DNA from: Gongronella butleri
Lineage: Eukaryota; Mucoromycota; Mucoromycetes; Mucorales; Cunninghamellaceae
Assembly (NCBI GenBank): GCA_025201375.1
Contig: JAIWZP010000001.1
Location: 124,001 to 188,000, forward strand
Length of the DNA: 64,000 bases
Reading direction: 5' to 3'
The position numbers and the translations under genes were made by a program. The notes beneath the pieces were generated by a model. That model had not been told where the DNA came from and made no database searches. It worked only from the letters and a program-made list of their open reading frames with translations. Positions 1,390-38,750 of this stretch are shown here, one piece after another (within the stretch, counting starts at the first letter, position 1; each line of letters begins with the position of its first letter).

Positions 1390-3070
1390 TTTGCCAGCGT
1401 TTTCTAGGAACATTTTCTACAGCGTAAAAAATCTCAATTTTTGATAGATAAATTCGTGCTCCCCGTTTACAGAAAAGCTCAAAGGCTGTTTTTGTGCACA
1501 TGACTTGGGTCCAGTTGTGGTGTGAGTTTCGGGGCGTATTATATAGAACAAACGTGGTCAAATCGCGCTTTGTAAAAAAGAGGATTCTGTGAATGCCTTT
1601 TAAGCGGGGGCTTTTTGGAAATCGATGAAATTTTGCCATGTGCGTGTATGTCAGCATCGTAGCATCTGAGTGCACTTGATTTTGCCTGTTCATCGCGTTC
1701 CATTGGCGAGTAATCGTTGATTACTTTGATTTTGATTAAATATCGCTCGTGCTCGACATTTTTGTTATTATATCGACTTGAATTTTTTTCAGTAACAGGG
1801 GAGCGAATTGCATTTCAACTTTGCTGCTTGGTTCAAAGTGCTCCAATTGCGTAAAGCAATTTAATCCAAGAAAAGCCAACTCAGTCTTAGATTTTCGTTT
1901 CTTGTTCTCCTTTTGAATTATTAAGACCATTTGAAATCAGATGCACAGGATGGTAAGCATTGCCATCTTAATCGTTGCAGCCTGTAGTAAAGCTGTACAA
2001 TGGCATGGAAGACATTTGTAATACACCATCAAGAAAATAACACGTCTACGTGATTTCATGAGCTTCTTGTGATCCAAATCTCTCGAAACCAAAACTAGTG
2101 CGAAGAGAAGGTTGTAGTGCACACTTTTTCATTATTGAACCAAGCGCAACAGCGCCTATAAAATACTGCAAGTGCAGAAAAAAAGACGTGTTTATGGGTT
2201 TTTACCATTTTGATCGCTTTTCTTCAAGGCTATCTTGCCGGCAACTTACGGCGCACGTGAAGAACGGTGTCAGTCGTAATTTTGTGGCCTGCGCCATTGT
2301 CTAGAAACAAAGGCAAGTGGCAGAAAACATGATTTTGCGAAAAAGACGTTATGTTTTCTCCATTTTTTTTCTAGGCGTCGTAATGCTTTGCTTAATAACG
2401 AAAAAGTGTACATGACAACGTGGTCTACGCACTGAGATTGGTTTCGAGAGATTTGGATCACAGCAAGCTCATGAAATCGCGCAAAAGTGTTATTCTTTCT
2501 TGGCGGTCTTGTACAAATGTCTTCCACGCCATTGTACAGCTTTGCTGCAGGCTGCAAAGTTGAAGATGGCAACGCGTACGCTCATGTACACCTGGTTTCA
2601 AATAGAACTATTAAGGCAAAGGAAACGTAAGAAACGAAAAACTAAGGGTTAGTTTGATTATTTTGAATTAAATTGTTTTGCGCCATTGGAGCACCGTGAA
2701 CCAAGCAGCAAAGTTGAAATGCGTTTCGCTCCCCTATAGCTGACAAAATATCAAGTCGATCTAATAACAAAAATGTCGAGAACGAGCGATATTTAGTCAA
2801 AATCAAAGTAACCAACGATTACTCGCCATTGGAACGCGATAAACGGACAAAACCAAGGGCACTCAGATGCTACGATGCTGACATACACGCACATGGCAAA
2901 ATTTCACCGATTTCGAAAAAGCCCCCGCTTAAAAGGCATTCACAGAATCCTCTTTTTTACAAAGCGCGATTTGAACGTGTTTGTTTTATAGAATACGCCC
3001 CGAAACTCACATTACAACTGGACCCAATCATCGTGCACATCATGAGCCCTCAAGCTCAGTTTTACGCCAG
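1390..3070. repeat. Foldback (long inverted repeat) element A
   Basis: Two arms of about 0.7 kb, roughly 1495-2165 and 2385-3047, are inverted copies of each other, about 90% identical by eye. For example, the stretch around 1600 that reads AAGCGGGGGCTTTTTGGAAA returns near 2920 as its complement (TTTTCGAAAAAGCCCCCGCTT). A spacer of about 200 bp separates the arms. Weaker similarity to the outer end of element B extends out to about 1390. No long protein is encoded. Elements B and C have the same design. Rejected alternatives are given elsewhere. Confidence 0.85.
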
Positions 3071-3309
3071 AAAGATGGCGGTCAATTTAGAAAAGAGTGA
3101 AATTGTGTGTATCTTGGTCGTTTTGCTGATTCCTACATTTTTAACAATGTCTTTTTTGCATTCATCGAGTAATGACAAGAGTTCTCGTTTGAATGAGCCT
3201 ACCGCGGACGTTCTTCGATCAATCTAAGGCTCGAATGACGATGATTGTTGTATTTTTCATGTTGTATCACTGATGTGTTCTCAAAAATGATGCTGCACGC
3301 CAAATTTTC

Positions 3310-3415: not shown

Positions 3416-6400
3416 TTAGAGCACGTTGATGCCGGGTGAGATCCACGTGTCGTAATTGCTTGGGTCATTTTCGTCGCCAAAGACGCGCAAGGCGGCAATC
3501 TTGAGACGGTAGGTGCCTGCGGGCAGTCGTTTTCCGATGCTTTCAGGCGACACGCCCCCAGAAGCGGTCCATTCCACCTTATCGGGCTCCGCTTCCGCCT
3601 CGTCGCGACCATCGCCACCTTGGTCAGGCATTGGGTTCGCTGCTGATTGCTTGCTGTGGCTCTTAATGAGGCTGTAAGGATGGAAATGGCTGCTTGAGCC
3701 CGTGGATGTGCTCAAAGCCTGTTGCTTGGTATCGACCACATTGCCAAACCACGTGAGCACAAACATATCGGATGGGTCGGCAAGGTCATTGCGGCCGACA
3801 TAGCGCGTGTAGCCACCTGGCACCCAGCCGAGCGTGTGGTCATTGTCTTCCGCGTCGACGACGGTAACCTCGACGACGGGCGACGCTTGGATCATCTGCA
3901 ATCGCATGTGTGTGGGGTCATGCACGCCCACGACGGGCTTGAGCACCGCCGGCATCGTGTCGTTTATCAGGAGCACCGGAAGCGCGCTCAAATCGGCGGT
4001 CAATCCCGCGTACGGCACGAGGATTTGCTCGCCACGCGTATCCTTTGTCAATTGGATGAACCCCGAGTAAATGGATGGCGCGACAAGATCCGCCGTTGCT
4101 GGCGGTTGAATCACCACCGACACGTTGGCACTTTCGCCCGCGCGAAGCTTGAGCGTCGTTTCGGGCAATTGCACCGTGGCCAGGCCTTTGGCTTGCGCCA
4201 GCCGAATTGGCTTGGTCAACGGAGCAAATGGTGTGATATCGGCATATCCTTGCACAGTCGTGGCGGGCGTGTGAGCAAACGAGTATTCAGCATCCGTTCG
4301 ATCCTTGTTGATCACCTCAAACGTATACACGTAGTCCTGAGCCGCATGCGCTATGTCTCTCAGCTCCAATTTCTCAGGGTGGATGCTCGTCGTGCTCGTG
4401 ATCGCTTGGTACACATCCACCATGCCCGCGCCCTGACGAGCAACCGACTCGAATGCCGCCGTGTCGTCCAATTGCGTCACAAGACGCGCATTGTTGATCA
4501 AACGCGTGCGCAATTCCTCTGTCGAGATGCTGCGGCCGCCACCGCGCGATTGGTGGATCAATGCCACCATCCCCGCCACCATGGGACTGGCCATGCTCGT
4601 GCCACTATTCAAAACAAGATCGAATCAGCGCGTTTTTTTTTTTTTTTTTTTTTTTTTGTCAATTGTCATTTTTTTCTTTTTTATCTTTACCTGAGCGTCG
4701 CATAGCTGCCCATTGGCACAGGATACGTAGAGTAAATCAGACCACCTGGCGCACTAACGTCTGGCTTCATGCTGAGATCGGGCCCAAGGCCCCATGAGCT
4801 GAAAGAGCTGATTTTGCCTAGGAGAAAAAAAAAAAAAGAAAATGTGAGCGGGCAGTGATTTTTTTTTTGGGTGAGTTCATGCTTTACCAGACGTCGGTGT
4901 CTCAAAGCTTGTGTCACCCTGATCGAATGTGGCCGGGACAAGCTTCTTTTGGGCGAGCTCGAATAGTCGCGAGCCATCCTTGTCGGTGATGCCGCCGAAT
5001 GGAATGGTGATGGCTGGATCGGACGCGGAAGGCGTAAAAAAGCCAGGATTGTTATTGTAGACGAGCACGCCGATGGCGCCAGCTGCTTGCGCATTCTTGA
5101 TCTTGTCGGCAAACACGCATCCACCGCGCGCGACAAGCGCGACCATACCTTGCAGCTTGGCCGGCGTCGTCGAAGGCTTGCATCCATCCGCAGGCGACAG
5201 GAATTCCGTCGACATGGGCACAATGGGCGTGTCGTTTATTTGGAACGGCTTGCCGCTGCTCGTCGCGTACCCAATTGGAGTGTCGTCGCTCCCTAATCGG
5301 ATCGTGTGCGCCAACACGTTGGAATTGTCCACACTTGCAATTGACAGCGCATGTTTGCCAAGCGACGGCGCGCCAACCTCGTAAATGCCCTTTTCGCCTT
5401 CATTTCCAGCTGCTGCAACCACCGACATTCCGCGTAGCGCCAATTCGTCTGCCAGCCGCGAGGCAGGCGATTCTGGCCACCCAACATCGCCCAGAGACAA
5501 GTTGATGATGTCCATGCCGTCCTCAAATGCTTGCTCCATCGCCTTCATAATCACATCATCGGCACTGCTGCCATTACATCCAAAGATACGATATGCACCC
5601 AGGATGGCTGACCATTGAAAATAAAAATCAGCAAAAAAAAGGTGGTGACTTTTTTTTTTTTTCCTATTTTGACGATTTTACCTTCCGGCGCGACGCCTGT
5701 AAAGTTTTTTTCAACGTCATTGGCGCCGACAATGCCTATAAAAAAAGGTGTAAGCGGCACAAGGAGTAAATATTGCCTTGAAATTTACCTGCAACATGCG
5801 TGCCATGGCCATTGCACGTGTCGCGAGGATCATTGTCGCCCGTGGGTGCATTCTCACCAGAGTAATTGTCGCCCACAAAATCGTAGCCAAACGCCACGCG
5901 ACAGTCAGGGCCAAAGCAGCCGCCAAGCGCGGGATGAGTGTAGTCAACACCTACAATTTGTCAAAAAAAATAGGTAAAATGAGCTTTTGCCATCGTTTGG
6001 GCCATTTGCCGCAAGGAATTTTACCTGTGTCAATGATGCCCACCTTGATGTTCGCACCTGTCAAGCTGGGTTTGAAAAAAGTTATTCACCGACGCGTTCC
6101 GGAAATGACCAATTTCTCTCTTTTGTCATTTTTTCTTACTTGAGTTCTTGCCGCGCGCGATTGACGCCGATTTTGTCATAATAATTGAAGAGCGATGGGA
6201 CAACCTCGTTAGGCGTAGCCTCATTGACCGTCACCTTGGGCCGCGCGACGGAACGCTACGTGACAAATACAAGAAAAAATGAAAACAGAGGTTGAGTCGC
6301 GCCTTTTTTTTTTTTTTTTTTTTTGGTCATGGGAAAAAACATACGACGGGCCAGACGCGCTTGTAGCTATTGACATTGGCAAGAAAGTTTTGGCTGTCTT

Positions 6401-8034: not shown

Positions 8035-8209
8035 GGGAAGAATCAAAGATGGAGGAGGCAAAAAAGCAAAAAAAGGCACCGCGCGCCCCAATTCATGGAG
8101 ACAAAGGCTGACGCGCCGGTATTCAAGTTCCGACAACGGCCTCCATCTGGGCTTTTTTTTTTCGTTTTCTTTCGCACACAAATTTGCCGTCTCTACACGT
8201 TTTCTTTGT

Positions 8210-8480
8210 AGTGCTTCGATACTGCACTTGCAATAGGCTGTGGTGCACCCAAGCATGGTCATCTGCTGGGCGTGGGACTGGCACCGCGGGAAGGAGTCTA
8301 TCCGAGAAAGCCCACAGCCGATTTGCTTGCGCTTTGCACCCTGCATGAATCAGTAACCACTGTCGTTGATGATCACGCTGTGGTGAACGCTGCCAGTGGC
8401 ATCCTTGATGTGCTTCTCTCTTGGGCTGATTCACTATTGCAGGGTGCCAAGAACAAAATGCAAGATAAGCCTTTTTTCCT
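8210..8480. repeat. Direct repeat unit D, copy 1 (8.2 kb)
   Basis: About 260 bp match 18790-19060 at roughly 85% by eye, in the same orientation. An open frame runs through both copies on the plus strand (shared YPRKPTADLLALCTLH) and another on the minus strand (MQGAKRKQIGCGLSRI). I do not recognise either product. It is probably part of the larger duplicated segment that includes foldback element B. Confidence 0.75.
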
Positions 8481-8947
8481 CACATTTTCTAACATCTGTT
8501 TTTTTTTTTTTTTTTTTTTCGGGGTGGCGCTGATCAATGACAATCTCCTCATTCTACTGACTGTGAACGACAAGATCTTGCCCGCCAAATCATGACCATG
8601 ATCTACGAAGTATTATCTGTAATGCGCAGCTGGGCAGATTTCATCGGGTTTCGAAAGAACACACGTTCAGTGCTTGCGCTTTAATCCATTTGCAGCAAAA
8701 CATAATTGATGAACACACTCGCCTCGGCCTTTGTGCATTTTCAACTGCTGTTTACATTGCATATTTCTGAATTGATCCTGTCAAATAAAAAACTCGTCGT
8801 ATCCACTCTGAATTTTCCAATCGAGCATTAAAGCGTGTCCACTCGTTTACCGGTGTCCCATCTGAGATAAATTGTTTACCTTGCTAAATATAGCTCAGGC
8901 TGCGAGTCCGTGTGTAAAATGGTGATGATGATTTGATACAGTATGAA

Positions 8948-11045
8948 AATGTCGCGTTCCCGGCATGCATCCAAGATTAAGAGAAGATACGTATGAAGAA
9001 CATGACCATGGGCCTGGTGCTCGGTGGATTTCGCTATCAGTTGTGTTGTAAAAAGGGAAACAAATCGCGCTTTACTAGTAAATAATGTTAAAAGTGACAG
9101 TGTGGCCGGGTTCTTGGAGAATCTAACAGCATATTGGAAAGCCAGGGCCATTCTGAACTTGTCTACACAATTTTACTGCTTCAGCGGGATCGACACAAAG
9201 CTTGTAATTCCCTGATAAGTCGCAATTGCACTCAAAAACCAGTTTTGAACAAATAATTTCATGCTTCCAATGTTGCAAAGAAAATTAGAGCAGCTTTGAT
9301 GGGAACAGCATGAAGCCACGTTCAAGGTGAATTTCAAGATATCTTGTATTGAACAAACGCGGTCAAATCGCACTTTGTATAAAATAGGATTCTGTGAATG
9401 CCTTTAAGCGGGGGATTTTTGAAACCTGGTGAAATTTTGCCACGCCCGTGTGCATCAGTCTCGTGGCTCGTCAATCAATTAATTTTGCCACTGCAGCGCG
9501 TTCCAATTGCGAGTAATTGCCTATTAACGTGTTTTTGGCTAACTATCGTTCGCTCTCAAAATTTTTGTTATTCGATCAGCTTGAAATTTTGCCAAAACCG
9601 CACTGGACTTTATTGCACTTCACTTTTGCTACTTGGATCAAGGAGGACCTTCAGGGGAGTAAAAACAAATAGGCTCATAAAAGGCAAATTAATTCCAGCT
9701 TTTGTACGGTAAGCCTTGATTTCATTAGTTGAGCCATTTAAAACCAGATGCACGGGATGATACGCGTGGCTAGCTACAACTTTGACGTCTTTAGCTGCTT
9801 GGTGCAATGGCTTGGACTATCGTCGCATTGGACCAATAAATAAAGACAGCAATTTAACGTGTTTTTATGAGCCTATTTTAATTCAAATACCTCGAAACCA
9901 ATATCAATATGCAAAGCGCAATGTGTTATACAGTATACTTTTACCTTATGAAGAGAAGATCCACGGGGCCTATAAAAAGCAAAGAGGAAAAATGCAAGAC
10001 CGTGTTTTTGGATTTTTGCCTCTTTGCGCGCTTTTCTTCAATAAGATATTGCTAGAAACTCATTGCGTGCGTAAAGCACGATACCAGGCGCAATTTCGTA
10101 GTATTCGCCATTGCGTAGGCACAAAGATTAGTGATAGAAAATACGGATTTTACAAAAACAATGCGTTTCCGGTCTCCTTTTTTTTTTCCCGACCCCGTAG
10201 CGCCTTGTGACTTGATAATGAAAAATGTGCAACGCAGCGTGATTTACATGTTGAGATTGGTTTCGAGAGAATTGGATCACAATAGACTCGAGAAAACACA
10301 TGTTAAGTTGTTATTTTACTTATTGGTTAAGTACAACTATCTCCCATGCCGTTGCAGCGCTTTGCAACAGGCGGCAAAATTGTAGCTGGCATTGCAGAAA
10401 ACCTCGTGCACCTGGTTTCAAATGATTCAGGTGATGCAAAGGACACACAACAAATAAAGAACTGTGATTATTCTGTTTTTCTTAGATTAGCTTTTTCTTA
10501 ATGCATCTGAGCACCTTGATTCAAGCAGCAAAGTCGAAATACATTCCGATCTCGTGTAGCTGACAAAGTTTCATGCTGATCGAAGAGCGGAAATATCGAG
10601 AACGATCGATATTTTTTTTTGAAAATCACGGTATTCCACGATTCCTCGCCATTGAGACAAGCTGCTTTGGCAAATTAAGCGGATTAGCGAGCCACGTTGC
10701 TTACGCAAATGGGCGTGGCAAAATTTCACCGTGTTTCAAAAGCCCCCGCTTAAAAGGCATTCACAGAGTCATCTTTTTTACAAAGCGCGATTTGACCGCG
10801 TTTGCTCAATACTTTGTGCCCTGAAAATCACCCTTCAACTTTCCCCATGCTATGTGCACAAAAAACAGCTCTCGAGGTTTTCTGTATACTGGGAAAACGA
10901 ATTTATTTGTTAAAATTGAGTTTTTTTATTTTATTTATTTTTACTGAATTACAACTTTTCAAGACACAATGCTATGTAACTGTACCTACTGCAGATAAAG
11001 TACCGTGATATCGACAAAATTGCTGTAGAAATGTTTCTGAAATAC
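8948..11045. repeat. Foldback element B with left extension
   Basis: The left part (8948-9440) is a near copy of 19790-20280, with landmarks such as GTCGCGTTCCCGGCATGCAT. The arms (about 9340-9900 and 10230-10870) are inverted copies of each other and match arms A and C, but are more diverged. The right end (about 10850-11045) is the complement of the left end of element A (about 1390-1500). No intact coding region was found. The stretch 8481-8947 shows nothing recognisable except a T-tract near 8500. Confidence 0.78.
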
Positions 11046-11191: not shown

Positions 11192-13210
11192 TTACATTAT
11201 AAGGATTCTGTCTATTAATGCCATTTTTTTGTAGTATGCCTTCGTATTTTCAAAATTGCTGATTTCAACCTCCGGCTCTTGATGCTGCTGCAGTCGCTTC
11301 TTTTTCTTGCTGCCAAGATCGTCGTCGATATACATGTGGCTCACACCATCTATAATCAGTAGATCCATGCGATGCAGTTCCGCCAAGCGGTTGCGCAACA
11401 TCTGTTCAAACGAGATGATAACTAGCGAGATGCGGTGAGCACATTGCGCACTGTTCTACGCGATGACCACTTACCGATATCATCGTAGACTTCGATGGTG
11501 CGCGGCGGCCGACGGACCAATCCCTGGAATTTGGGCTCATCAATGTACCTGTCAAAGTTCTCGGCAAAGTAATTGATGCACCAATACTCCATACGATCAA
11601 TATTGAGCTCCTGGCTAACCTTCAATAAAAGGTAAATGTCGACAGGGGGCTCCTTTGAACCCGTCAATACGTCGGCAGCCAACAGTTTGAGACGATCTAT
11701 CAGCAAAAAGTCAGCCCCCAGCAGCACGTCATATGCCAAATCGGAGGTAATGGCCGCGTGATCTGTGTAGAGAAATTTAAGAACCTTAACAATAAAATAG
11801 ACGCGTTAAAAAGGGACCGAATATTTCCAGGCGGGCGCGTTTCCTTACGCATTCAAAGACATCCGATGGGAAATCAGAGTGGATGACAGGTAGATCAAGC
11901 GTGGTGATGGTGTCGTACTGGATTTTCGAGGTTTTGGTCGCGGAGTCTGCAAACGCGCCTTGGAAAAAGCCCTTGAAATAGTGCGATCGACACAGCACGG
12001 CTTTGTGACACGGGAACATGAGCTGCTCTTCTGTCAGGTACACGGCTATATCCGCAAAAAGGGCGTTGGGGCCTTCCAAATTCGTCGCATTTTTGAGCCA
12101 GTCGGTAAAACGTGCCTGCTGTTCGCCCGTGTCGTTGCTGCTTTTTTCATCTGCGGCCGCTGCATCGTCGGGAGTCGGCTCGATATATAATTTCTCCACG
12201 GCCCACTCGCCATCGCCAATGGGATCCACATAGGCTGCGCACACGAGGAGTCGCTTTACAAACAAATCCATGTCGTGACGCAAAATGCTTAGATCACGCA
12301 CGTTGTTTTTGCGCCGCATGGAATGGCGCGACGTGTCGCCGGCTGCGAGTTCATTGCCACAGCGCCGTTCCAGACCATCCATGTTCATGTCTAGCGCTGC
12401 AGCTCCAAGGTTGGCCAGTACATGCACTTCAATGTCGCCCAATTGGCCTGTGTACAGGAACCGCAGCAGCGCGCTAAACGTGTCCTTGTCGACTGACAGC
12501 GTATCGAGCAGAATTTCAGGTTGATCGCGCCACTTGTCGCTCTGCAGCAAGGTCTTGAAATAGCCGGAACGTGCTGCAAGCATGAAGCGATGCGCCGAAA
12601 ATGACCATGTCGCGCCCGAGCCAAAGGTAAAGCGCACGTCTTCAAAGGGATGCTCCTGCAGCAGCTCATTGAGGTACGACGCAAAGGGCTGATTCTTGTT
12701 GATACCATTGACACTCTTGTAGGACATTAGCAGACGCCGAATGTCAAGATTCAATGCATTGTCAAAACACCGCATTCTATCATGTGAATCATCATAGTAA
12801 AGATAAGAAAAGCGTCAGCCCAAACACAGATGCCATCCCAATACATATGAGTGTGTCACATAATACCCAATCGAGGTATCCGGGTCATAGTTGCAGCCAT
12901 TCTGCAGCAAAAACTCGGCCACACGATAATGGCCACAGAGGCCTATCATAAAAAGCGTGAATTTCGAGAAGTATCGATGCCATGCCCACTTACATGCCCA
13001 GTACAAGGCGCTGCAATTCCACACATCCACGTCGTTGACAGGTGCACCATAGTCGTTTACAAGGTGATCCACCTTTTTCAAGTTGCCATCCTTGCAGGCC
13101 TCGCACAAGTCATAAAACAGGCTATTGTCGGCATTGGGATCTAAGGATTCAAAGGTGAAATCCAAGGGCACGTTTCTACTCTTGATGAAATTGGTATTGG
13201 TCCCAGTCAT
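11192..13210 (-). CDS. ABTB1: Ankyrin repeat and double BTB/POZ protein (ABTB1/BPOZ, YIL001W-like)
   Basis: A 586-residue protein from five exons: 13210-12994, 12942-12867, 12776-11849, 11784-11475 and 11421-11192. Order: N-terminal ankyrin repeats (FYDLCEACKDGNLKKVDHLV, then CGHYRVAEFLLQNG), a first BTB domain (DVRFTF followed by SAHRFMLAARSGYFKTLL), a long linker, a second BTB domain (DIAVYLTEEQLMFPCHKAVL) with a BACK-like tail, and a Lys-rich C-terminus (GSKKKKRLQQ). This architecture is that of animal ABTB1/BPOZ and yeast YIL001W. These are thought to act as Cullin-3-type adaptors or in eEF1A turnover. The first exon start is the only upstream ATG in frame before the ankyrin repeats. The function is inferred from family. 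Confidence 0.88.
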
Positions 13211-13752
13211 GTGGGAGGGTAAGGTATACAGTAGGTTAAGGTGGCAGACAAATCACAGAGGGAAAATGAGAGCAAGGCTGCAAAGGGACGAGACGTCCAA
13301 GATGGGGAAAAAGGGGTCTATCGGACCTGAGGGCGGTATTTAAAAAAACAGGGGTGGTCTTTGGAACCCAACACAGCAAAAAAAAACTCGCTGAGGGTTG
13401 CCTTTAATGGGCCAAGGAAGAATTGATTGGGCGAATTTCCGGAAGATGCTATTGTGACAAAGATGTGCGACGCGTTTTCTCTTTTGTTTCTCCGTTTAAA
13501 AAGCAGTGGCACAGTAAAACGATCCTCATGGAAGAAGATATTCATGCGCTGCTGTTCTATTCAAGCTTCCAAGATAGCCATGATATTTGAGGATCATTTT
13601 TGGAGTGGATGAGAGCTGTGGATTTTGAGAAAGAAAAAAAAAGGGCGGGGGAGGTGATCTAAAATGAGACTTGATAAAAAAAAGGGAGCGAGCGGGGATT
13701 TGAGTTTTCCCTGTTCTTCCCCATTCCTTCTTGTTTATCCCAACACGCAGCG
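13211..13752. other. Intergenic between ABTB1 and the Fanzor gene
   Basis: This serves as the shared 5' flank of two divergent genes. I see purine-rich runs (13620-13690) and no TATA box, repeat or transposon end that I can support. Confidence 0.4.
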
Positions 13753-16700
13753 ATGCCGTTTTTTTCCATTGTAAAGGAGAAACTTGACGCAAAGGCACGT
13801 GCAGCACAACAGGAAGAACAGGGCGAGGAAGGTGAGGAAGGTGAGACGGCAGCGACGGCGGCTCGCGTCGAGCAGCAAGACGGGGAGGCACCGACTGGAG
13901 GACAACAAAGTGACGGCCAAGGACAAGTCGCGGCGGACGACGCCGCTGGAGCGACAACAGAGCAAATTCAAGCAGCATCCGAGGCCGGTACATCCAGCGA
14001 TGCTAGTGGTAAGCTAAAAAGAGCAGAAAGACGCGTCGCTAAAGAGCAGCCCTCTCACTTTTTTTTTAAAATCTTAGCCAAGCGCCAAAAAAAGGGCAAG
14101 GGACGGATGACCGCCAAACGCCGACAAAACAAGGACGAGAAGGAAAAAAAGATCAGCGCCAAGGAAGAATTTGCGGCGGCGACCAAGGCAAGTTCTGCGG
14201 CTGTACAAAATCCTTGTCCTCGATGCAAGAGCGCGGCTGCCCGGCTGGATGACGAGGCGACGGCACTGATCGAGGGACATGCGGACCCCGTTGCTGCTCA
14301 AGACGATCCTGAGGTGGAGCGCCTCCGTGCCGAGGCCAAGGCGCGCCTTGAATTGGCATACACCCACGCAAGACCTACGAATCAGCTCTGCCCAGATTAC
14401 ATCAAACGCAAGTCGGTGAAAACAAAGGAGCGCCTTGGCAAGACGCGTCGAACGACAATCAAGCATGGTCTGGCCTCTCTATTGAGCAGTGACATTACCG
14501 ACGACGATCAGCGCATCCTCCTGGATGGCATCCACAACATCGTCACATTCAATCGACATCTCGCCATCAATGCCATTCTGTTCACTCAGAAATACGTCGT
14601 CGACATCCTCCACAGCGGTGGCCACGTCCCACGTGCCCTGTTTACACAGGCGTTTTTCATTGCAGTGTTTCAGCTGATTCTTGGTAATCCAGTCTCCAAC
14701 AAGGCCCTCTTTGCGGACAACGACACGCGCACGGCCTTTTTACAAGCATTCGATCAATTCAAAATCGAGCATCCGCAAATCCACATGAACAAGCTGGTTG
14801 GTGTGAACGGCAAGCCCAATGGATTCGCAACCGTCACGGGCTACACGGCGATACAATTGGCGACAATGATGAAGAACCATGTGGTCGAAAACTTTGAGAT
14901 TTTCTTCATGCGTTACCTGGCCGCAAAGTTTGCGATGGATCATCCCGTAAGTTCATGAACAGGCCGCATCTCCACAGGATTGCTCACTTTCTTGTGGGGG
15001 TTTTCCTTTTTTTTCTTTTTTTTTTTCTTTTAGGACCTCAAGCCGCATCATTGCCGCTCTTATGCCATGTATGCGTATGACAAGGTGTGCAAAGACGAGC
15101 TGTTTCCGCCAGAGCTGCCCGACTACAAGAAGATGAAGGCGGAGCAAAAAGAGCAGCTGAAGAACGACGCGGACGATCTGGCGCAACACGCTGAAGGCAA
15201 ATTGGCGCGGGTGGGCGATTTTGTCTTAGAAGAAAAGGCTCATATTGCCGAGGCCTCGCGCACGCGGCAAGAAGCCAATGATCGAGCGCGCGACATGTCC
15301 CTGGCCAACCGCAACGCGATCATTGCCGCTTTGACGTTTAGCTCGACCAGTCGCACCGTCGTGGCCGAGTCATCTGCTGCCGGTGCCGCGCAAGAAGCAG
15401 CATTGCAAGCCACCCAAGAAGCTGCCATTGCCGCCCAAGAAGCTACCATTGCCGCGCAAGAAGCCGCCATCATTCAAGGTGATGCCCTGCAAGCCGCCGC
15501 ATTGCAATCCGCACGTGATCAAGCGGCCGAATTGCACGCTGCCGCCGCCGAGGCACAAGTCGCCGCCATGGCTCAAGCACAAGAGACAGAATTTGCCGGC
15601 AACGTGGCCGCGACGATGCACATTGCCGCGCGCAACACCCACGCGACATACAATGCCTGCGCTCATGCGGCCAACAGCCATCATGCAAATGTGATACCAT
15701 CATTGGCCGCAGCTGCAAGTGCTGCGCATGCCGCCTTGGGCCAAGCACCCGCCGCCATGACCGCCATCGCACAAGAGTCGTTTCGGCAAGCAGACCAGGC
15801 ATATCGTGACGCATTGAATTATTCAGCAGTGCTTGTGGCCACCGTCGAAAATGCACAGCGTAACGCAGACGCGTCTCACCAACTTGCCCAGCAAGCCGCG
15901 CAAAATCACGCCACAGCAATCGCCTTGTCCACAGCCAAGAACGCCGACGCCGAGGCTGCCGCTGCAGACGCCTCAGCCGCAGACGCTCAAGTCGCAAGCA
16001 TCATGGCCGCCATGGCCGCTGCCAATGACGACAACAACAACAACGACAATGGCGACGACGACGAAGACCATCCAATGGAAATCGAGCCTTTGGACGACGA
16101 CGACGTTTCCATGATGCATGCATCGGATGCCATGTCCACGAGCACCGTCGGCGCGGCAGCCATGGCACAACTCCACGTCTCCCACAATGCGTCCGTCACA
16201 ACAGCAACATTGACAAAATACCCGCATTTCTTCATCAAAGTTCTCTACGACGCCCTCAAGGAGATCGAAGCCTGGAACGATGACAATGCTGCAAGACCCG
16301 CGCAAGTCGCCACCGAGGCAACCTTTCCTTGGACCAAGCATCAATTGGAAGAAAAGGTGCCAGCCTGGGAAGACCTCAATTACCGCCGCCGATCGCGTTT
16401 GACCCGCATCATCACAAAAATCATCAATGACAAGGACCACTCGCTTGACATCACGCGCCTGCCATACCAAAAACAATTGGACGACCAAGAATCCCAAGAT
16501 GCAATCAAGGACATTGTCACGGAAACCAAGCACAAGATCAAAAACAACACCTTCATGCCCGAAATCTACATCGCCCGCCCAGCCATCCGTCTTTTTTCCG
16601 TGGTTCCCAGCCTTTCCTTCAGATTGCGCTACATCCATTGGTCCCATGAGAGCCTTTTGGGCCTTTTGACCTTTTTGGGCCTCACAAAGTACAAACAGGG

Positions 16701-17666
16701 CACGACATCAGCGCCTGACGACGGCTCGGTGCATCCTATCTTTGACCGACTCTTCAATTGGACCAAAATTCGAAAGTAAAAGATGAAAAAAGAGCCAAAA
16801 AAAAAAAAAAAAAAGAGAATGAGGCTGACCTTTTTTTTTTTTTTTCCAGACCCAAGCAAGCCGTGTTTGACAATGCGCTGGCAACTGACGGCTTGGCTCT
16901 ATCCCTGTATTACCGCATCCCAATCACCGGCAAGGCCCCTCCGCAGCTGACTCTAGACGACATTGAGCCCGAAGATCTCCAACACTGCCATGTTTGGGGC
17001 GTGGATCCGGGCGTGACTGAAGTGTTTGTGGCAGTCGATGGATCTAGCCAGGACGACAACATCTATGGCCCCACGCACCCAACATTGCCGCCGCGGCCCC
17101 CCTCTGTTCGCCATCGAGTCCGGTCTGCCTCAGTGCGGCCGCTCAAGCATGGTGCGGCGTCGAATCAGGCAAGATCGCCGTCAATACCGCGCCATCAATC
17201 CCACCGCCACGTCGAGAAAGGGCAACGGCACCAAGTCCGACGCTTTTCTGCGCACGAATTTGATCATGTGGCCGGCATCAAGCGATCCAATGCAAAAATC
17301 AAGACTTGGAAGGCCAATGATATCGACCGAGAGGGCTCGACCATCACCCACCTGGAATCCCAGCTGGCCAGCGCCAAGACGTCGATGCCCAGCAGAATGG
17401 CGCAGCATATTGAAAGCGTCCTGGCTGCCCTGCCTCGCCTCATGGCACATTACGCCCTTGCACATCAAGGCTTGCGATTTTTCAACTATCAAGGCAGGCA
17501 AAGAGCAACAGAAGAAATGGTCAGAATCCTTTGCCACGGTGGCAGCAAATATCAGCCCAAAGACACCACGGGGCAGCCGCCCGGAGATCAAAACGGTGCG
17601 AGGTAAGGAGGAGACAACGAGCGACCGACCCTGTCCCGAGAATCTTGCCATTAAGCATCATCCCCA

Positions 17667-17699
<33 letters not shown>

Positions 17700-18336
17700 G
17701 CATAGCAGGCAGACGGCATCCATGGTTTACCAAGACCTCAAGTAAGAAAGCAGGAGCAACAGCAAGAGCAACAGCCAGGTTGGTCACGAGAAACATTCAA
17801 TTGATTGTCTTTTTTTTTTTTTTTTGTCATCATCCAGGTGGCGCAAAGCACCAAACAGGCGCTTATTTGGGAAATGCCCTCTGATTTGCATCGGCGACGC
17901 GCAATTCCGGCGCATGAATTGGCGCGGCAAGCCAAGTGGACGCCCTGCGCGGCTCCGACGCGCCCTGGCCCTTGCCCAACGCGAGTGTCGACTGCTCGTC
18001 GTACAAGTACCCGAGTCATACACCAGCAAGACATGCTCATCTTGTGGTCGCCGATCCCTCACGAATGTGACAAAGCGTGACAGCGGCGTTGACAATTTCA
18101 AGCTGCACGGCGCGCTCACCTGTACCTGGTGCGCGCGGATTTGGCAGCGGGATGTCAATGCTGCGCGGAACATCCGTGCCATCGCCCTCATGAACATCAA
18201 TGGTCGCAATCTCCCCGCCTTGGACCCAGACAACAAGGACTCGCGCCCCGCCGTCTTCACAAAGGCTTACGATGAACCCGACCCCCAACAACCCCCCTTC
18301 CATTGGCTGCCAAAAAAGCAGACCATGATTGCATAA
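13753..18336 (+). CDS. Fanzor (eukaryotic TnpB-like, RNA-guided RuvC endonuclease)
   Basis: Fanzors are eukaryotic relatives of IS200/IS605 TnpB that cut DNA guided by a transposon-encoded omega RNA. My model is five exons: 13753-14008, 14078-14946, 15034-16775, 16850-17602 and 17838-18336. They give one continuous frame of 1372 residues. N-terminus: acidic Gln/Glu-rich segment (1-85), basic NLS-like segment (about 87-110), lone CPRC (132-135), then a helical region (about 150-385). Residues about 488-704 are an Ala/Gln-rich insertion followed by an Asp/Asn-rich stretch (to about 735). Catalytic part: RuvC-I VWGVDPGV (Asp1008), RRFSAHEFDHVAGIKRSN, CIGDAQF (Asp1227), ESYTSKTCSSCG (Glu1266, Cys1273/1276), LTCTWC (Cys1302/1305) and RDVNAARNI (Asp1312). 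This fits the Fanzor signature Asp, about 260 residues, TSxx, C4 zinc finger, RD. The exon 4-5 join is inferred: AG|G restores the frame across a 235-nt intron. Activity is unproven. Confidence 0.9.
15388..15475 (+). repeat. 21-bp tandem repeat within the Fanzor coding sequence
   Basis: About four degenerate units of 21 bp (type GCCGCCCAAGAAGCTGCCAT) encode AAQEAAI-like heptads. They form the start of the Ala/Gln-rich insertion, which continues in less regular form to about 16020. Confidence 0.75.
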
Positions 18337-18560
18337 TGATCGCCAGGTTATTGGTAAGCACGGACAAAGAAGGCAGTCGTGAAATGGGGAGCATAGCAGT
18401 CGTTTTGCAGACATGTGGTTGGTCACTGACTTTTGCTTTTTTTTTTTTTTTTTTTTTTTGCAGTGCAAGTACGGTCCTTTGATTTCCCCCCCCCACCACC
18501 CCAACCATGGAGAAAAAAAAATTTTTTTTTTTAAGTAACATTACATGTTAATAAATTTAT
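18337..18560 (+). other. Fanzor 3' flank: probable 3' UTR intron and poly(A) signal
   Basis: After the stop, a GTAAGC donor near 18354 and a T22-GCAG acceptor near 18462 look like a 3' UTR intron. A C-run, an A9/T10 palindrome and an AATAAA at 18550-18555 follow. In characterised Fanzor and TnpB loci the guide (omega) RNA overlaps or follows the 3' end of the gene, so this segment is the place to look for it. I see no guide-scaffold structure that I could defend. Confidence 0.45.
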
Positions 18561-18789
18561 AATCCTCCGGGATTACTCGACATGGGTTTTTGGTCAACAC
18601 CAAAACGCGTCTGGCCCCTTTTGACCGCGTTTTGCCCTGTAAATTTGCCTCCCACATCAACATCAGCCCTTATGCTATCGCTACAATCTTTTCCCAGTTT
18701 CACATAGGCCACCTTTTGCTGGGAGGCTCCCCGAGAATGTGTTCAAATGTTCCCAAAACTGGACCAGTTGATGATGGACATCGGTGTCG

Positions 18790-19060
18790 CCTCTACACTG
18801 TTTTCTTTGCATTGCTTGAATGTTGCGCTTGCAATGGGCTATGATGCATCCAAGCATGGTCATCTGCTGAGCGTAGGACTGGCACCGTGGGAAGGAGACT
18901 ATCCGAGAAAGCCCACAGCCGATTTGCTTGCGCTTTGCACCCTGCATAAATCAGAAGCCATTGCCGTTGATGATCACGGTGTGGTGAACGCTGCCAGCAC
19001 GGCGTCCTTGATGCTTACCTCTTGGGCTGATTCACGATTGCAGGGTGCATAAGAACAAAT
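18790..19060. repeat. Direct repeat unit D, copy 2 (18.9 kb)
   Basis: Same orientation as 8210-8480 and about 85% identical by eye. The plus frame is open from 18747 and shares YPRKPTADLLALCTLH and DDHGVVNAAS with copy 1. Product not recognised. Confidence 0.75.
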
Positions 19061-19789
19061 GCAAGGTAAGTCTTTTTCCTCACCTTTTCTGACTTTTTTT
19101 TTTCCTGCACGTCTGATGCTCAATCAAAGGGATCTACACTGTGACCAAGTTTCGCGGATATCCGAGGACCTCAATTTCAAATTCTTCGACGCGGCCCCGT
19201 TTCGCCTATTTTTGAAAAAACAGTCCAGGTTACTCAAATCAGCGTTTACAGCCGTGAAACTGGTCTCATTTGAGCCCTACTCGCCGCGTACTCTTCTTAT
19301 AGTGGCCTATCTCTTTTTTTTTTTTTTAACCTCCCCCTGCCTCTTCCACACAAATGCATGACTGAAAATACACAATAATAAAGAGAGGGATAATAACGGA
19401 ACACTATCGATCAGAATTTAAGGCCGCATGGATGTTGAAAATGAAATGCATGCTGTTGCTGCTGCTTCCTAAAATGCCTGAGGGTCCCATCTTCTGTGCT
19501 TTTTGCTTGACAGACCTCTTAGCTGCACAAGCTGTTTCCAGAAGCGGATCAACACATCCAACCCTGTCGCTTGCATTATGTGAACCACGTGGATTTGACT
19601 GTGTGTGAGGCGATTATTCAGCTTCTTCACATTTTGAACAACATTATCGCTTGGAATTCCTAGCAAATACTATTCAGCTGAACTGAGCACACCATCTACT
19701 ACAAAAATGCTGCATACAAGAGACCTCTAAATTGCTTATGGTGTCTGAAAAGCTGCTGTTGAGTGTAAAACACAATTTTCAAGCAAATA

Positions 19790-21730
19790 ATGTCGCATTC
19801 CCGGCATGCATCCAAGATGAAGGGAGGGCATGATGAACATGGCTAGAGGGCATGGTGCATGGTGGATTTCGCTACTGTATCAGTTGTATTGTAAAAAGGG
19901 AAACAAATCGCGCTTTACTAGTACATAATGTTAAAAATGACAGTGTGGCCGGGTCGTTGGAGAACCTAACAGCATATTGGAACGCCAGTGCCATTCTGAA
20001 CTTGTCTGCACAATTTTACTGCTTTAGCGGGATCGACACAAAGCCTGTAGTGCCCTGATAAGTCGCAATTGCGCTCAAAAACCAGTTTTGCACAAACAAT
20101 TTCATGCTTCCAATGTTGCAATAGAAATTTAGAGCAGCTTTGATGGGCATAGCATGAAGACACATTCAAGGTGAATTTAAAGACATCTTGTATTGAACAA
20201 ACGCGGTCGGATCGCGCTTTGTTAAAAAGAGGATTTTGTGAATGCCATTTAAGCGGGAACTTTTTGGAATTAGATCAAATTTTGCTATGTACGTGTATTT
20301 CAGCATCGTAGCATCTGAATGCACTTGGTTTTGTCTCACCATTGTGTCCAAATGGCGAATAATCGATGATTTTCATGATTTTGACTAAATATCGCTCGTT
20401 CTCAATGTTTGTATTATTTGATCAGCTTGAAACTTTGTCAGCTACACGGTAACGAATTGCACTTCAACTTCGCTGATTGATTCAAGGTGCCCCAATGGAG
20501 TAAAACAATTTAATCCAAAAAAAGAAGACTCATTCTTGGGTTTTCGTTTCTTTTTCTCCTTTTGAATTATTAAAGCCATTTGAAATCAAATGCACAGGAT
20601 GGTACGCATTGCCATCTTAATCTTTGGTGCCTACAGCAAAGCTGCACAATGGCGTGGAAGACATTTGTACTACACCATGAAGAAAAATATTACTTTTACC
20701 TGATTTCATGAGCTTGTTGCGATCCAAATCTCTCAAAACCAAAACCAGTGAGTGGAGAAGTTGCAGTGTACACTTTTTCATTATTGAACCAAGCGCAACA
20801 GGGCCTAGAAAATATTGTAGGTGGAGAAGAATAGTCGCGTTTCTGAGTTTTACCATTGCGATCGCTTTTCTTCAAGGTAATTTTGCCGGCAACTCACAGC
20901 GCGCGTAAATAACGGTATTAGTCGCAACTTTGTAGCTTTACCGTGGCCTAGAAACAAAGGCAAGAGATATAAAATATGATCTTTGCGAAAAAGGCGCCAT
21001 GTTTTCTCGATTGTTTTCTTCTAGGCGTTGTAGCGCTTGGCTTAATAATGAAAAAGTGTACAGGACAACGTGTTCTACGTATTGATATTGATTTCAGAAG
21101 ATTTGGATCACAACAAGCTCATGAAGTTACACAAAAAGTGGAATTTTTTCTTGACGGTCAGGTACAAATGTCTTCCACAGCATTGTACAGTTTTGCTGCA
21201 GACAGCAAAGTTGAAGATGGCAACGTGTACCCACCTGTGCACTTGGTTTCAAATGGAACTATTAACGCAAAGGAACCGCAAGATGCAAAAAACTAAGAAT
21301 TAGTTCGCGTTTTTTGAATTAAATTGTTTTACGCCATCAGAGGACCTTGAGCCAAGCAGCAAAGCTAAAATACAATTCGCTACCGTGTAGCTGACAAAAT
21401 ATCAAGTGGATCGAATAAGAAAAATGTTGAGAATAAGCGATATTTAGTCAAAATCCCGTTAAACAACGATTACTCACCATTGGAACACGATGTTGGGACA
21501 AAACCAAGTGCATTCAGATGATACGATGCTGCCATACACGCACATGACAAAATTTCACCGACTTTCAACAAGCCCCCGCTTAAATGGCATTCACAAAATC
21601 CTCTTTTTTGCAAAGCGCGATTTGACCGCGTTTGTTCAATACATTGTAAATCTACAGCACAGCTGGACCCAAATCTTTTCCACAAAATGAGCCCTCAAGC
21701 TCAGCTTTACACCAGATACAGCACGTAGTG
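19790..21730. repeat. Foldback element C with left extension
   Basis: The left extension (19790-20160) repeats 8948-9300. The arms (about 20170-20860 and 21030-21680) are inverted copies of each other and resemble element A closely (AAGCGGG core near 20255 and its complement near 21580). The right end shares ATGAGCCCTCAAGCTCAG with the right end of element A (3042 and 21688). No intact protein is encoded. The stretch 19061-19789 holds nothing I recognise. Confidence 0.82.
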
Positions 21731-21999
21731 TGTAAAAAAAGATGTTTTTGCGTGCATTTTGATTATTTTCCGATGGTTTTATAGATAACAAAGCTATTTG
21801 CTTGTTCAAAGAGTAACTGTAAGCTTGCGCGTTCGAATGAGCCCGCCGCCGGAGCTCTGTGGGCATTGGATGGCGCGCAATGGCGATTATAATAAAACAC
21901 TAATTTTCCAAGGGGTGCAGTCGAAGATTTCAAAATGAAGAAACGCTGGCTCTCAGATCGCCACGCCATTCAGCCACACGGAAAGTCACCTGTGTTTAC

Positions 22000-22570
22000 C
22001 GGCAGAAATGCAATAAACACCGAACACTGATTCACTGGCTTTCGCGCAAAGCGCAAAAAGCTGTATATTTTCAGTCCTAGGCAATGTCAACGAGAAATGC
22101 ATGCTTCGAGCAACATGCACCATCAGAAAGAGCATGGCTCACTGCGTACATGGGCATCGGTGGTCGTTGAAAAATGTATTTTTTGGCACTTTTGGCGCGA
22201 TTTAAATCTCATAGACATTTTTGACGCGTGATAAACCGCGTCTGACCTCGACTTTGACGCGTGACGCGTCTGTTTCTAATAGCATCTATGCACCCGGAGA
22301 GTATCTTGCTAGTGGACGCGTCAGCGCGGCTCTTTGGGCGCGTTTTAGCCGTGCAATTCGACATTGAAATTAAATCTAAAATGTCTCATTGTTCGTCACC
22401 GAGCACATGCACATTGCTCTTTTTTGGCTCAATTCGTGGTTTCTCTGTTTGATGCATCTTGTGTACAAGTTTGGATGAATTCTGGCGACCTGATTTTTTG
22501 ATATTGAAATTGGGGGCGAGTCACGACAAATTTTGATTTGTGCGTGAAGCGCCTCAACTGCCTGCAATAG
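22000..22570 (+). repeat. Dispersed repeat family 2, diverged copy (22 kb)
   Basis: Matches 37930-38300 and the complement of 52480-52800 in blocks: CATCAGA-AGA-ATGGCTC, then a GACGCGT-rich stretch (22220-22350) and GTGGACGCGTCAGCGC. The frame ILLVDASAR is shared with the copy at 52.6 kb. Roughly 65-70% identity by eye. Confidence 0.6.
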
Positions 22571-25634: not shown

Positions 25635-28155
25635 ATGGCCTCTGAAAGCGACTTTGACGATGATATTATGGTAAGACGCTTCTTTTTTTTCTCGGTCCTG
25701 CAACAATTACACCCTTAACGTCTTTTTTCTTTCTATTTTTTCTTTTTGCGTTTCTGTGCCTGCAGCTCGACTCGGACGATATCATGGACGAAGACTCGGA
25801 CTTTTCCAACTCGCTGAGCGTGTCCGGTAAGCATTTCGAGGCGATTACAGCCCATTGAGGGGCGCGCGTGACGCCCCTCGCCTTGTGGGAGAGCTGTGCG
25901 GCGCGGTCTGTGTGTGGGTGATGCTGTGAACATGTGAGACGGGCGGACTGCCAATGGCACGACTCTTTGGGTGTTTGGCATGAAAAAGATGAGAATGGAT
26001 TCATCCACAGATGTTGATGGCAAGAGAGGGGAGGGAAAGAGGGCGACGAGCCCAGCACCATGAAAAAAAAAGACAATGAGAAGAGAAAAAAAAGGAGAGG
26101 ATTAGGCGGGTGACACGCATGCGATGCGTGAATGGGTGATGCCAATGAAACCTTATGATTTTCGCGAACTTTCAAGAATTGTTGCTCATTTTTCCTTGCT
26201 CTCTCTTTTTTTTTTTTTTCCTTAGACAATGATGCGGACGACATGGCGTTTGACGGCGCGTTCACAGACAAGCCCGGTCGCAAGGCCTACGACGTGGAAT
26301 TCTCCGTTCAAACCGTCGACAATCTGATGGCCAGCCAAAACAAGGAAATCCAGCAAGTGACCACCATCCTAGGTAGGCTCCAATCGGTTTACCCGGACCA
26401 AGGGGTGTGCGAGAGGTCTGCAGGGAGGCCGGCGCACCAGGAGAAAAAAAGGGCCAAAAAGAGGAATCTCAGGGGATTCGGCACGAAAAAAAGAAAGAAA
26501 AAAAAAAGCGCGCGAGATCGATCGAGAACGAGAAAAAAAAAAGACGCGTGCTTTTGCGCGTCCAATGGCATCATGTCAAGAATTGACACCTTTTTTTCCT
26601 TTTTTTTTTTTTTTTCTTTTGGTCAGGTCTTCAACCCAAGGATGCCGCGACTTTGCTGCGCTATTTCCGCTGGAACAAGGAAAAGTTGTTTGAGCGATAC
26701 ATGGACGAATCGGACAAGGTGCTTAGTGATGCAGGCGTGTCTCTCGGTGAGCATGTAAATACGGTTGTGCTTGCGCAGGACTTGCCCAAGGAATTGCAGC
26801 CGTTTATGTGCGAGATTTGCTGCGACGACGATCCGGAGATGGAAACGGCGACCGTGGCGTGCGGCCACCGGTTCTGCCTCGCTTGCTACAACCAGTATCT
26901 GACACAGAAGATCAAGGACGGCGAGAGCCGGCGGATAGAATGTCCCCAAGATAGGTGCAATGTGATTGTCGACGAGGCGACCGTCCAGCGCATTGTCGAT
27001 CCCGCCACCATGTCTCGCTATAGGGAGCTGCTCAATCGCACGTTTGTCGACGACAATGACTTTTTGCGCTGGTGCCCCGCGCCCGATTGCGAGTATGCCG
27101 TCGAATGCCACGTCCCGAGCACGTCGCTGTCGTCCATCGTGCCCACCGTCACCTGCCGCTGTGGCGACGTCTTCTGCTTTGGCTGCGGCCTCCCCGACCA
27201 CCAGCCCGCCATCTGCGTCATCGTCAAAAAGTGGCTCAAAAAGTGCGAAGACGACTCGGAAACAGCCAATTGGATCTCGGCACATACTAAAGAGTGCCCA
27301 CGATGCCATTCCACCATTGAAAAGAACGGCGGTTGCAACCACATGACCTGCCGCAAGTGCCGCCACGAATTTTGCTGGGTCTGCATGGGTAATTACAAGA
27401 AAAAGAAAAAAAAACGAAAAACAAAAAACAAAAAAAAGAACAAAAAGATATTTTTTTCTTGCTTGCCGAATTCTCACCCTCCGTTTTTGATTTCCCAGGG
27501 CCCTGGTCTGAGCATGGGACCTCTTGGTATAATTGCAATCGCTTTGACGAGCGCAGCAGCTCGAGCGCCAGGGACAACCAGACGCAATCTCGACTATCCT
27601 TGGAGAGGTATCTTCACGTAAGTGTTTTTTAAGGCATTGGCGACGTGACGCGACGCGTCGAGGGGGGCGTGAACGAAAACACGCGTCGCTCACGTTTTTT
27701 TTCCTTTTTTCCCTCGCTAGTATTATAACCGATACGCAAATCACGAGCAATCGGCCAAGTTGGACCAAGATTTGTACCAAAAGACGGAACGCAAGATGGA
27801 AGAAATGCAGCAGACAAGCGACCTGTCGTGGATCGAAGTTCAATTCCTCAAGACGGCCGTGGATGTGACGGTGCAGTGTCGCATGACGCTAAAGTGGACG
27901 TACGCGTTTGCGTTTTACCTGTCAAAGACCAACGAGACCGCGCTTTTTGAGGACAACCAGCGCGACCTCGAGATGGCCACCGAGCAGCTGTCTGAGCTCC
28001 TCGAGAAGCCGCTGGAGCGCGAGAAGATTGCGCAATTGCGTCAAGCCGTCCTCGACAAATCCGTCTACGTCAAGCAACGCCGTGAGGTCTTGCTTGAAGA
28101 TACCGCCAAGGGCTTGCTCGAGGGCAGATGGTCCTTTATCGTAGATATCAAATGA
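25635..28155 (+). CDS. ARI1: Ariadne-type RBR E3 ubiquitin ligase (ARIH1/Ari1-like)
   Basis: An RBR ligase takes ubiquitin from an E2 onto its own RING2 cysteine before transfer to substrate. The 519-residue protein is in six exons: 25635-25670, 25766-25826, 26226-26372, 26627-27388, 27499-27617 and 27721-28155. Order: acidic N-terminus (DDDIMLDSDDIMDEDSD), UBA-like segment (LQPKDAATLLRYFRWNKEKL), RING1 from about 141 (CEICCDDD, then CGHRFCLACYNQYL), IBR (CRCGDVFCFGCG), RING2 (CPRCHSTIEKNGGCNHMTC) with catalytic Cys about 318, and a helical Ariadne domain (RYANHEQSAKLDQDLY). The 399-nt second intron is the longest I see in the window. The family is firm; the gene name follows the animal and yeast usage. 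Confidence 0.95.
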
Positions 28156-37243: not shown

Positions 37244-37839
37244 CCATTTTTCGCGCGCCGTTCGTCATGCCGCGTCATGCAGCATAATCGACACCGTGGA
37301 AAAATACTCAAGGCTGTGCGCCACAGCGCGTCACGTTCACCAATCACGAAAAATCACACACAAATGCCATTGCTTGCCGCCTTTGGCAATCCACATCATC
37401 CAGGCCATTGCAGAGTCCTTGTTCATCGGAGGCGCTTGCTCACTTTGAGCTAAACAGGCCGGATTCTCGTGTATCATAGGAGACTTTTTTTTTTGTTTTT
37501 TTTTTCTGCATCTTGGCCACCACACGTCGCTGTTTTTATATACAATTATCATGGATGAAAATGCAATCATTTTTGTCGCCATGCTGCATAAAAACAAAGG
37601 TAATTGATTATGCCGTTTCCCAGTATTTACCCCTTGGCGCTGTTTTTATTGTATTTTGACTGTTTTTCGATGGAGACGCAGTCCACGGAGAAATCGATTC
37701 CCTCGGCATGAACTCCCATCATTTCTCGTTTACAAGTGAGCTCACCCGCAGTACATTAAGATCGCTAGATGGCGCGCTATGACAAGTTTCCAAAACCACC
37801 GATTTTTAAAGGAGTGGAGTCGAGAAATTTAGGACGTCA
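37244..37839. other. Intergenic
   Basis: No gene recognised. A T-rich tract lies at 37486-37505. Confidence 0.4.
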
Positions 37840-38750
37840 GGTCGCCGCGATATTCAACCACGTGGTAAACACGCCTAATGAACGGATACAAATGATAAAA
37901 AAACAGGAGTCCATAGCTGGGTTTCGCGCAAGTAGCGAAATGCTGCGATTTTTCACCCAAGTACATTTCGACGAAAAATGCCTGTTTCTCCGACAAACGC
38001 ACATCATCAGAGAGAGAATGGCTCGACGCATACGATGGTGCCGATGATCACTAACAAAAAAAAGTGATTTTTTGTCATTTTTGACGCGGTTTCAAAATCA
38101 TAGGGCTTCTTTGACGCGCGTTAAAACCGCGTCAGACGTCGAGGTAGACGCGCCTGTTTCTAATCGTATTCATGCTGCTGGATACTTTCTTGTTGATGGA
38201 CGCGTCAGTGTGCCGTAAAAGACGCGTTTCTCCTTTGCGATTAGTATTCCAAGTTTCATCATAAAATAGGGCATTGCTCGTCAATGAGAAGATGGATCGC
38301 ATTCTTTTTTCGCAATTTCCGTGATTTCTCCACTCTCTTTCCCTGGTGTGTAAGTTTTGTGCAATTCCGGAGATCCATTTTTTCATTTGGTCTGTGGACG
38401 TCCCGGCACGACGAAATCTTGATTTGCGTGTCGCGCGCTCCCAAGGAATTGTGGTCGCCGAAAGTCGCGTCCCACTCAGCCTTTTTACTGGCCGCTTCCC
38501 ATTGTGATGCATTTCGAGATATTCTAAGTGCCTGGTTTGGTGAGTGGCAATATGATTTGCTTTTAAAACCAGTCGCGCATAATGCTTCTCTCAATAAACT
38601 TGTTAAAGCGGTCCCAAATTTGAATCAGGTGATGCTAGAGACAAATCGACGACAATACCAAACTATCCCGGTGATCGGCCGGCGTAAAACCATGACAGGC
38701 ATCAAGAAATCACGGTAAAACGAGCCTTTGTTGGCCAAGTCGCCGAGATC
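37840..38750 (+). repeat. Dispersed repeat family 2, long copy (38 kb)
   Basis: About 0.8-0.9 kb matches the reverse complement of 52100-53060 in long blocks, including GACGCGCGTTAAAACCGCGT, the sequence around CGACGAAATCTTGATTTGCG and CCAAATTTGAATCA. An open frame 38284-38718 has peptide blocks shared with the 52 kb copy. No known transposase domain was recognised. Confidence 0.75.

Follow-up and report, generated by a model that had tools for sequence, protein, structure and literature searches.

A 64,000-nucleotide stretch of the genome of the Mucorales fungus Gongronella butleri (contig JAIWZP010000001.1, positions 124,001 to 188,000; hereafter the window) holds a gene that is close to certain to be a Fanzor1, and we find that it is the only gene of a 5.1-kb element, which has CAC...GTG ends and is flanked by 3-bp target site duplications. 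We assign a probability of about 0.75 to the reading that this is a CACTA-ended element whose Fanzor1 product is likely an RNA-guided nuclease, with a guide that would be taken from the element's right end and the adjoining host DNA. The reading is carried by the ends and the duplication, the copies elsewhere in the genome, an open frame, purifying selection in the pairs of copies tested, and kinship with Fanzor1 in both sequence and fold.

The element and its Fanzor1 gene

We used matches to the gene across the genome to delimit the element and to compare its copies. There are 19 such matches, from which the window copy (W) and 15 others were examined as 16 loci, leaving out the three weakest (C55:48605, C66:13792 and C1:9385); a 152-residue piece of exon 2 on its own gives 16 matches. 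Over one sharp block, two copies on contigs C71 and C75 are 94.6 and 94.8% identical to the window; beyond it the flanks differ. The mobility of the element is well supported. CAC..GTG ends with a 3-bp duplication are the criterion for EnSpm elements in fungi (PMC12730594), and the element at 13372-18465 (Table 1) has ends and duplications of this CACTA/EnSpm type. Among the seven elements with both ends, four have a perfect 3-bp duplication (W, CAA; L011, GAT; L022, ATA; L023, AGA), and the ends of L022 and L023 are of the same type as those of W. The terminal inverted repeat word CACTGCAAAAAAAA occurs 40 times, against 4 for its reversed control, and among these occurrences only L010 shows a close forward-reverse pair.

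An earlier reading of the letters alone (the sequence-only reading) had joined five exons into a 1372-codon frame. Rebuilding the gene gave one open frame of exactly this length, with the three key residues where they had been placed: residue 1008 is the aspartate of VWGVDPGV (the DPG motif of RuvC-I; codon 17004-17006), residue 1266 the glutamate of VPESYTSK (codon 18013-18015) and residue 1312 the aspartate of RDVNAARN (codon 18151-18153). The splice borders are kept in six other copies in the locus alignment, and T-rich runs precede each AG. A further 36-nt exon lies in frame between plausible splice sites, its length being a multiple of 3 in five of seven copies (W and L009-L012; it is missing from L013 and L014), so that a six-exon model of 1384 codons is as plausible as the five-exon one. 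Intron 1 is open in frame and therefore could be retained. Thus the five-exon frame stands as first drawn, with the sixth exon equally possible, while the biological unit is larger than the gene and corresponds to the whole element. Among database proteins the nearest is P0001, a hypothetical 956-residue protein of G. butleri with no Pfam domain listed; it matches residues 1-956 of our model at 100%, through the first two introns, and ends where intron 3 starts, so the public model lacks the nuclease half. A single missed intron is thus enough to hide the nuclease half of such a gene.

Fanzor identity had been proposed from the layout of an aspartate, a TSxx-C4 motif and an RD motif, and the comparisons support it. 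The last exon matches PF07282 (Cas12f1-like TNB) with an E-value of 2.8e-13, and the C4 zinc ribbon is followed by the RD, whose D1312 aligns with D606 of SpuFz1. Six residues separate E1266, which aligns with SpuFz1 E541, from the first zinc cysteine (E1266-SYTSKT-C); a catalytic glutamate at this spacing, Ealt, is a mark of Fanzor1 (PMC10711439). Sequence profiles ranked the known Fanzor1 structures first, narrowly, and in a fold comparison using the predicted model of a relative they came clearly first, with the best structure match to a Fanzor1 and not to a Fanzor2. The product is likely an RNA-guided DNA nuclease, to judge by kinship and selection.

The protein is as unusually long as the sequence-only reading had it, at 1372 residues compared with 600-700 in most Fanzor1 (PMC11423790). 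The excess includes an Ala/Gln-rich stretch at about residues 461-765 (40% Ala plus Gln) and an insertion within RuvC, after the DPG strand, at about residues 1023-1082. In the alignment the Ala/Gln-rich insertion is absent from the Absidia and Syncephalastrum relatives; in the Hesseltinella relative, a long insertion of another kind precedes the WRK motif.

The predicted terminal intron and the expected guide RNA

Another way to view the right end of the element is as part of the transcript. We predict a terminal intron of 110 bases that starts with GTAAGC, 17 bases after the stop codon, and ends at the right end of the transposon, its T-tract closing in GCAG two bases before the element does. 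A donor follows the stop codon in all 16 loci (GTAAG in 14, GTAAA in 2), and the layout of donor, branch-like CTNA(C/T) and final YAG(TG) is complete in 13 of them, although these loci are related and the 13 layouts are not independent events; the acceptor is missing from L015 and L021, and no right end shows in L019, for which 160 bases after the stop were used. Dinucleotide shuffles with the last 8 bases fixed reproduced the full layout in 0-6% of cases per locus. As controls, no GTAAG occurs in the 300 nt nearest the right end of L111, an element of the same genome with a Transposase_21 gene, and the left noncoding parts of four elements hold one GTAAG in total. The predicted layout resembles that of the gene's own introns. 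Insertions of maize dSpm are spliced at their termini; for Fanzor, no title on a terminal intron was among the matches listed when Fanzor was combined with intron or splice. In L016, L018, L019, L022 and L023 an AATAAA stands directly before the predicted donor, after the stop, so that polyadenylation may compete with 5' splicing there.

The omega RNA of SpuFz1 has a scaffold of 75 nt, placed after the stop codon and before the right end, and a guide that extends a further 14-15 nt into the flank; the omega RNA of GtFz1 overlaps the coding end (PMC10432273). By analogy, the scaffold and guide would be expected here at the positions in Table 1. The predicted terminal intron covers the stretch that matches the SpuFz1 guide RNA position, and its splicing would therefore remove the guide scaffold, from which we infer that splicing and guide RNA would exclude each other within any one transcript. 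Searches of the window with Rfam (gathering threshold) and ARAGORN gave no matches.

Immediately left of the duplication stands the pentamer GCGTC in L009 and L010 and GCTTC in L022 and L023, with GAACC in W, CACGC in L011 and TCTTT in L012. When the duplication is counted as well, all 8 bases are identical between L009 and L010, and 7 of 8 between L022 and L023; a random pair of 8-mers reaches 7 or more matches in 0.07% of draws. By eye, no such agreement shows in the right flanks beyond the CAA that W, L009 and L010 have in common. SpuFz1 has a conserved CA upstream of its left end and a target-adjacent motif (TAM) of CATA (PMC10432273), which makes GCKTC a weak candidate TAM here, based on four of seven elements that form two pairs of close copies. 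We tentatively propose, though we think it less likely than not, a splicing switch in which the guide scaffold would be the last Fanzor intron and the right end its 3' splice site, with the left-only GCKTC as candidate TAM alongside.

Counter-evidence and alternative explanations

Several observations count against our reading. L009 and L010 read CAG on the left and CAA on the right (one mismatch), and since the right-hand CAA is common to W, L009 and L010, the match at W could partly be shared sequence. L012 has no duplication, and L013 and L014 share another left border, TAACGATAAAA..., again with none. No convincing left end was found for the older copies L016, L017, L018, L020 and L021, and a search for an empty site, made for the W insertion only, found none. 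The lead of Fanzor1 over Fanzor2 and Cas12f/TnpB by sequence only is one to two orders of magnitude, and the structural model is a poor one of a relative (mean predicted local distance difference test score 60.7, predicted template modelling score 0.43) that aligns at a root-mean-square deviation of 13.8-17.7, and in which the geometry of the D1008, E1266 and D1312 triad is therefore not visible. At the 3' end, no unusually stable fold was found in four single sequences (z-scores of 0.15, 0.96, 0.39 and 0.74 against shuffles), nor a conserved one (the consensus has an energy of -5.86 and changes on both sides in 2 of its 21 pairs). Finally, AG/TG is inherent in any CACTA end, and the acceptor need not reflect selection for splicing, evidence for which is thus confined to the donor, branch and tract.

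The last of these points leads to the strongest alternative, to which we give somewhat less than an even chance: that the terminal intron is not spliced, and that GTAAG, ATTGG..CTNAC and the right end are kept as parts of an omega RNA scaffold or as a site bound by a transposase. The ATTGG block is conserved beyond what an intron requires, the omega RNA of SpuFz1 lies in this same stretch, and that of GtFz1 overlaps the coding end (PMC10432273). However, all three core splice signals and the T-tract are kept while the remainder diverges, the layout is like that of the gene's own introns, GTAAG is lacking near the right end of L111, and none of the four sequences folds better than its shuffles.

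It is unlikely that the nuclease is defunct and that its copies are carried along because a CACTA transposase recognises their ends. No full frame was found in L011 (its best model has 895 codons), L020 and L021 carry internal stops, and in L021 the relocated glutamate is a glutamine. Yet the full frame is present in the other six of seven close copies, all six of which keep the D, E, D triad, and recent copies are under purifying selection. We computed the ratio of nonsynonymous to synonymous differences (pN/pS) outside the Ala-rich part for five pairs, obtaining 0.43 for W-L009, 0.32 for W-L010, 0.29 for both L009-L010 and W-L012, and 0.25 for L013-L014; the nonsynonymous rate is significantly lower in all five (Fisher test, p from 3e-4 to 3e-101). 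The sequence-only suggestion that the gene may still be selected and active is thus borne out for selection, by the open frame, the kept triad and these ratios, and activity appears likely from kinship and selection. L013 (2663-7555) and L014 (2452-7373, both in gene direction) form a pair of Fanzor loci at 97% with the usual right end, and L022 and L023 a distant pair at 26-37% protein identity to W and 98% DNA identity to each other. The Ala-rich part behaves differently: its synonymous divergence (dS) is 0.30 between W and L009, where eight other segments give 0-0.11, and between W and L012 it is 0.37, against 0.90-1.45 elsewhere (one segment saturated). These opposite shifts suggest that the Ala-rich part was exchanged between Fanzor subfamilies.

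Slightly less likely again is an origin in PIF/Harbinger or some other superfamily that makes 3-bp duplications; canonical Harbinger elements also yield duplications of this length (PMC12730594). Nine Transposase_21 matches were found in the genome, eight of them over the cut-off, and none lies within the element, so that its CACTA-type ends can make it no more than a non-autonomous member of that class. Internal DNA common to the Fanzor element and a possible autonomous partner was not found, and a genome search that passed over very common words found no miniature inverted-repeat transposable element, ghost element or autonomous partner sharing its internal ends; besides the Fanzor copies, it gave only short matches of 30-35 bases at the T-run. 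Nevertheless, the CAC..GTG ends are like those of L111 (766-9740), a Transposase_21 element of the same genome, which has ends CACTGGAG...CTCCAGTG (CACTGGAGAAAG...TTTCTCCAGTG) and a TTG duplication, and the right ends of older Fanzor copies (CTAGTG in L016, L018 and L020, TTTAGTG in L017) carry TAGTG, which is CACTA reversed. L111, L112 and L114, and also L107-L110, are CACTA-type elements with Transposase_21 that occur as near-identical copies; L107 and L110 begin CACCGGGG, and no right end was found for them when sought. That the gene is a settled, immobile host gene with a role unrelated to transposons, as its purifying selection and long multi-intron structure might suggest, is very improbable given three copies about 95% identical with sharp common borders and differing flanks, and 16 loci of very varied divergence.

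Known systems, surroundings and significance

Among the closest parallels to the Gongronella element is SpuFz1 of Spizellomyces punctatus (PMC10432273), which shares the Fanzor1 fold, the relocated glutamate, a gene between inverted repeats and conserved bases upstream of the left end. It differs in having 638 residues from a single open reading frame in a 2.1-kb locus, and in its 134 ghost elements, where we found none; the sections of that report cited here mention no terminal intron. Relative to PpFz1 of Parasitella parasitica (PMC11423790), the protein described here has the Ala/Gln-rich insertion of about 300 residues as an extra. The Fanzor-like proteins P0004-P0006, P0008 and P0009, from Hesseltinella vesiculosa and Absidia cylindrospora, share the DPG motif, relocated glutamate, zinc ribbon and RD, but have no Ala/Gln-rich insertion of this kind. 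ROr-4, PBl-3 and MCi-4 (Bao and Jurka, PMC3627910) are likewise transposase-less DNA transposons of Mucorales that carry Fanzor1, with MuDr-type ends and 9-bp duplications instead of CACTA-type ends and 3 bp. Fungal EnSpm/CACTA elements (PMC12730594) have CAC..GTG ends and 3-bp duplications but, as described there, carry a transposase and TET/JBP, in place of the Fanzor without Transposase_21 seen here. In viral contigs, 5 stretches matched the pattern and none was confirmed. A literature search for a link between Fanzor and CACTA/EnSpm found none, the one work with both Fanzor and EnSpm applying the two terms to different repeats; CACTA-type ends would thus add another superfamily to the known captors of Fanzor.

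Table 1. Features of the Fanzor1 element in the window
Feature	Position	Strand	Basis
Whole mobile element, 5094 bp, CACAGC...GCAGTG	13372..18465	+	Approximate limits of the block shared with two copies; flanking DNA differs
Left 3-bp target site duplication, CAA	13369..13371	.	Matches 18466-18468
Left terminal inverted repeat, CACAGCAAAAAAAAA	13372..13386	+	14 of 15 bases complementary to right end
Exon 1	13753..14008	+	Alignment of copies, rebuilt frame; identical in public model P0001
Exon 2	14078..14946	+	Alignment, rebuilt frame; identical in P0001
Exon 3, including Ala/Gln-rich insertion	15034..16775	+	Alignment, rebuilt frame
Ala/Gln-rich insertion codons, about residues 461-765	15289..16203	+	Alignment with relatives
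Exon 4, RuvC-I with D1008	16850..17602	+	Alignment, rebuilt frame
Possible small extra exon, 36 nt	17706..17741	+	Alignment of copies
Last coding exon: E1266, C4 zinc ribbon, D1312, stop	17838..18336	+	PF07282 match
Expected omega RNA scaffold region	18337..18465	+	Analogy with SpuFz1 (PMC10432273)
Predicted terminal intron, GTAAGC...CTGAC...T-tract...GCAG	18354..18463	+	Layout complete in 13 of 16 loci
Right terminal inverted repeat, TTTTTTTTTGCAGTG, holding predicted 3' splice site CAG/TG	18451..18465	+	Complementarity to left end
Right 3-bp target site duplication, CAA	18466..18468	.	Matches 13369-13371
Expected guide, host flank starting with target duplication	18466..18485	+	Inferred from SpuFz1 layout

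Several repeats lie around the element in the window. A repeat of about 1.5 kb is present three times (1539-3071, 9344-10840 and 20188-21716, the last with inverted arms of about 620 bp), and a second family occurs in both orientations at 21867-22540, 37756-38634 and 52188-53074, with relatives near the Fanzor copies L013, L014, L016, L018 and L021. A direct repeat of 86% identity joins 8185-8503 to 18785-19103, just past the element. The window also encodes a subtilase with a PA domain (4877-5677, minus strand), a BTB domain with ankyrin repeats in the frames next to it, directed away from the element (11786-13252, minus strand), and an Ariadne-type IBR ubiquitin ligase (26587-27621, plus strand).

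We envisage that the element, with no CACTA transposase of its own, would depend for its movement on a CACTA-type transposase supplied in trans by the same genome, such as those on its recently copied elements. The guide would consist of the target duplication and right flank, read from the element's right end into host DNA, so that after excision Fanzor with its guide would cleave the vacated site and make it more likely that the element is restored there, an effect also proposed for the cutting of empty sites by TnpB. The spliced transcript would be an mRNA without the guide scaffold, and the unspliced transcript could serve as guide RNA. To our knowledge, how eukaryotic transposons balance Fanzor protein against guide RNA seems to be open. 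TnpB, according to a title cited in PMC11423790, processes its own mRNA into guide RNA. If the proposed switch operates, splicing would yield a nuclease mRNA joined to host sequence and retention of the intron would yield the guide RNA, so that each transcript would have to choose between enzyme and guide, and the transposon end would be at once transposase site, splice site and guide-RNA border. By falling on the expected guide region, the conserved predicted intron would offer a concrete and testable answer to how protein and guide are balanced.

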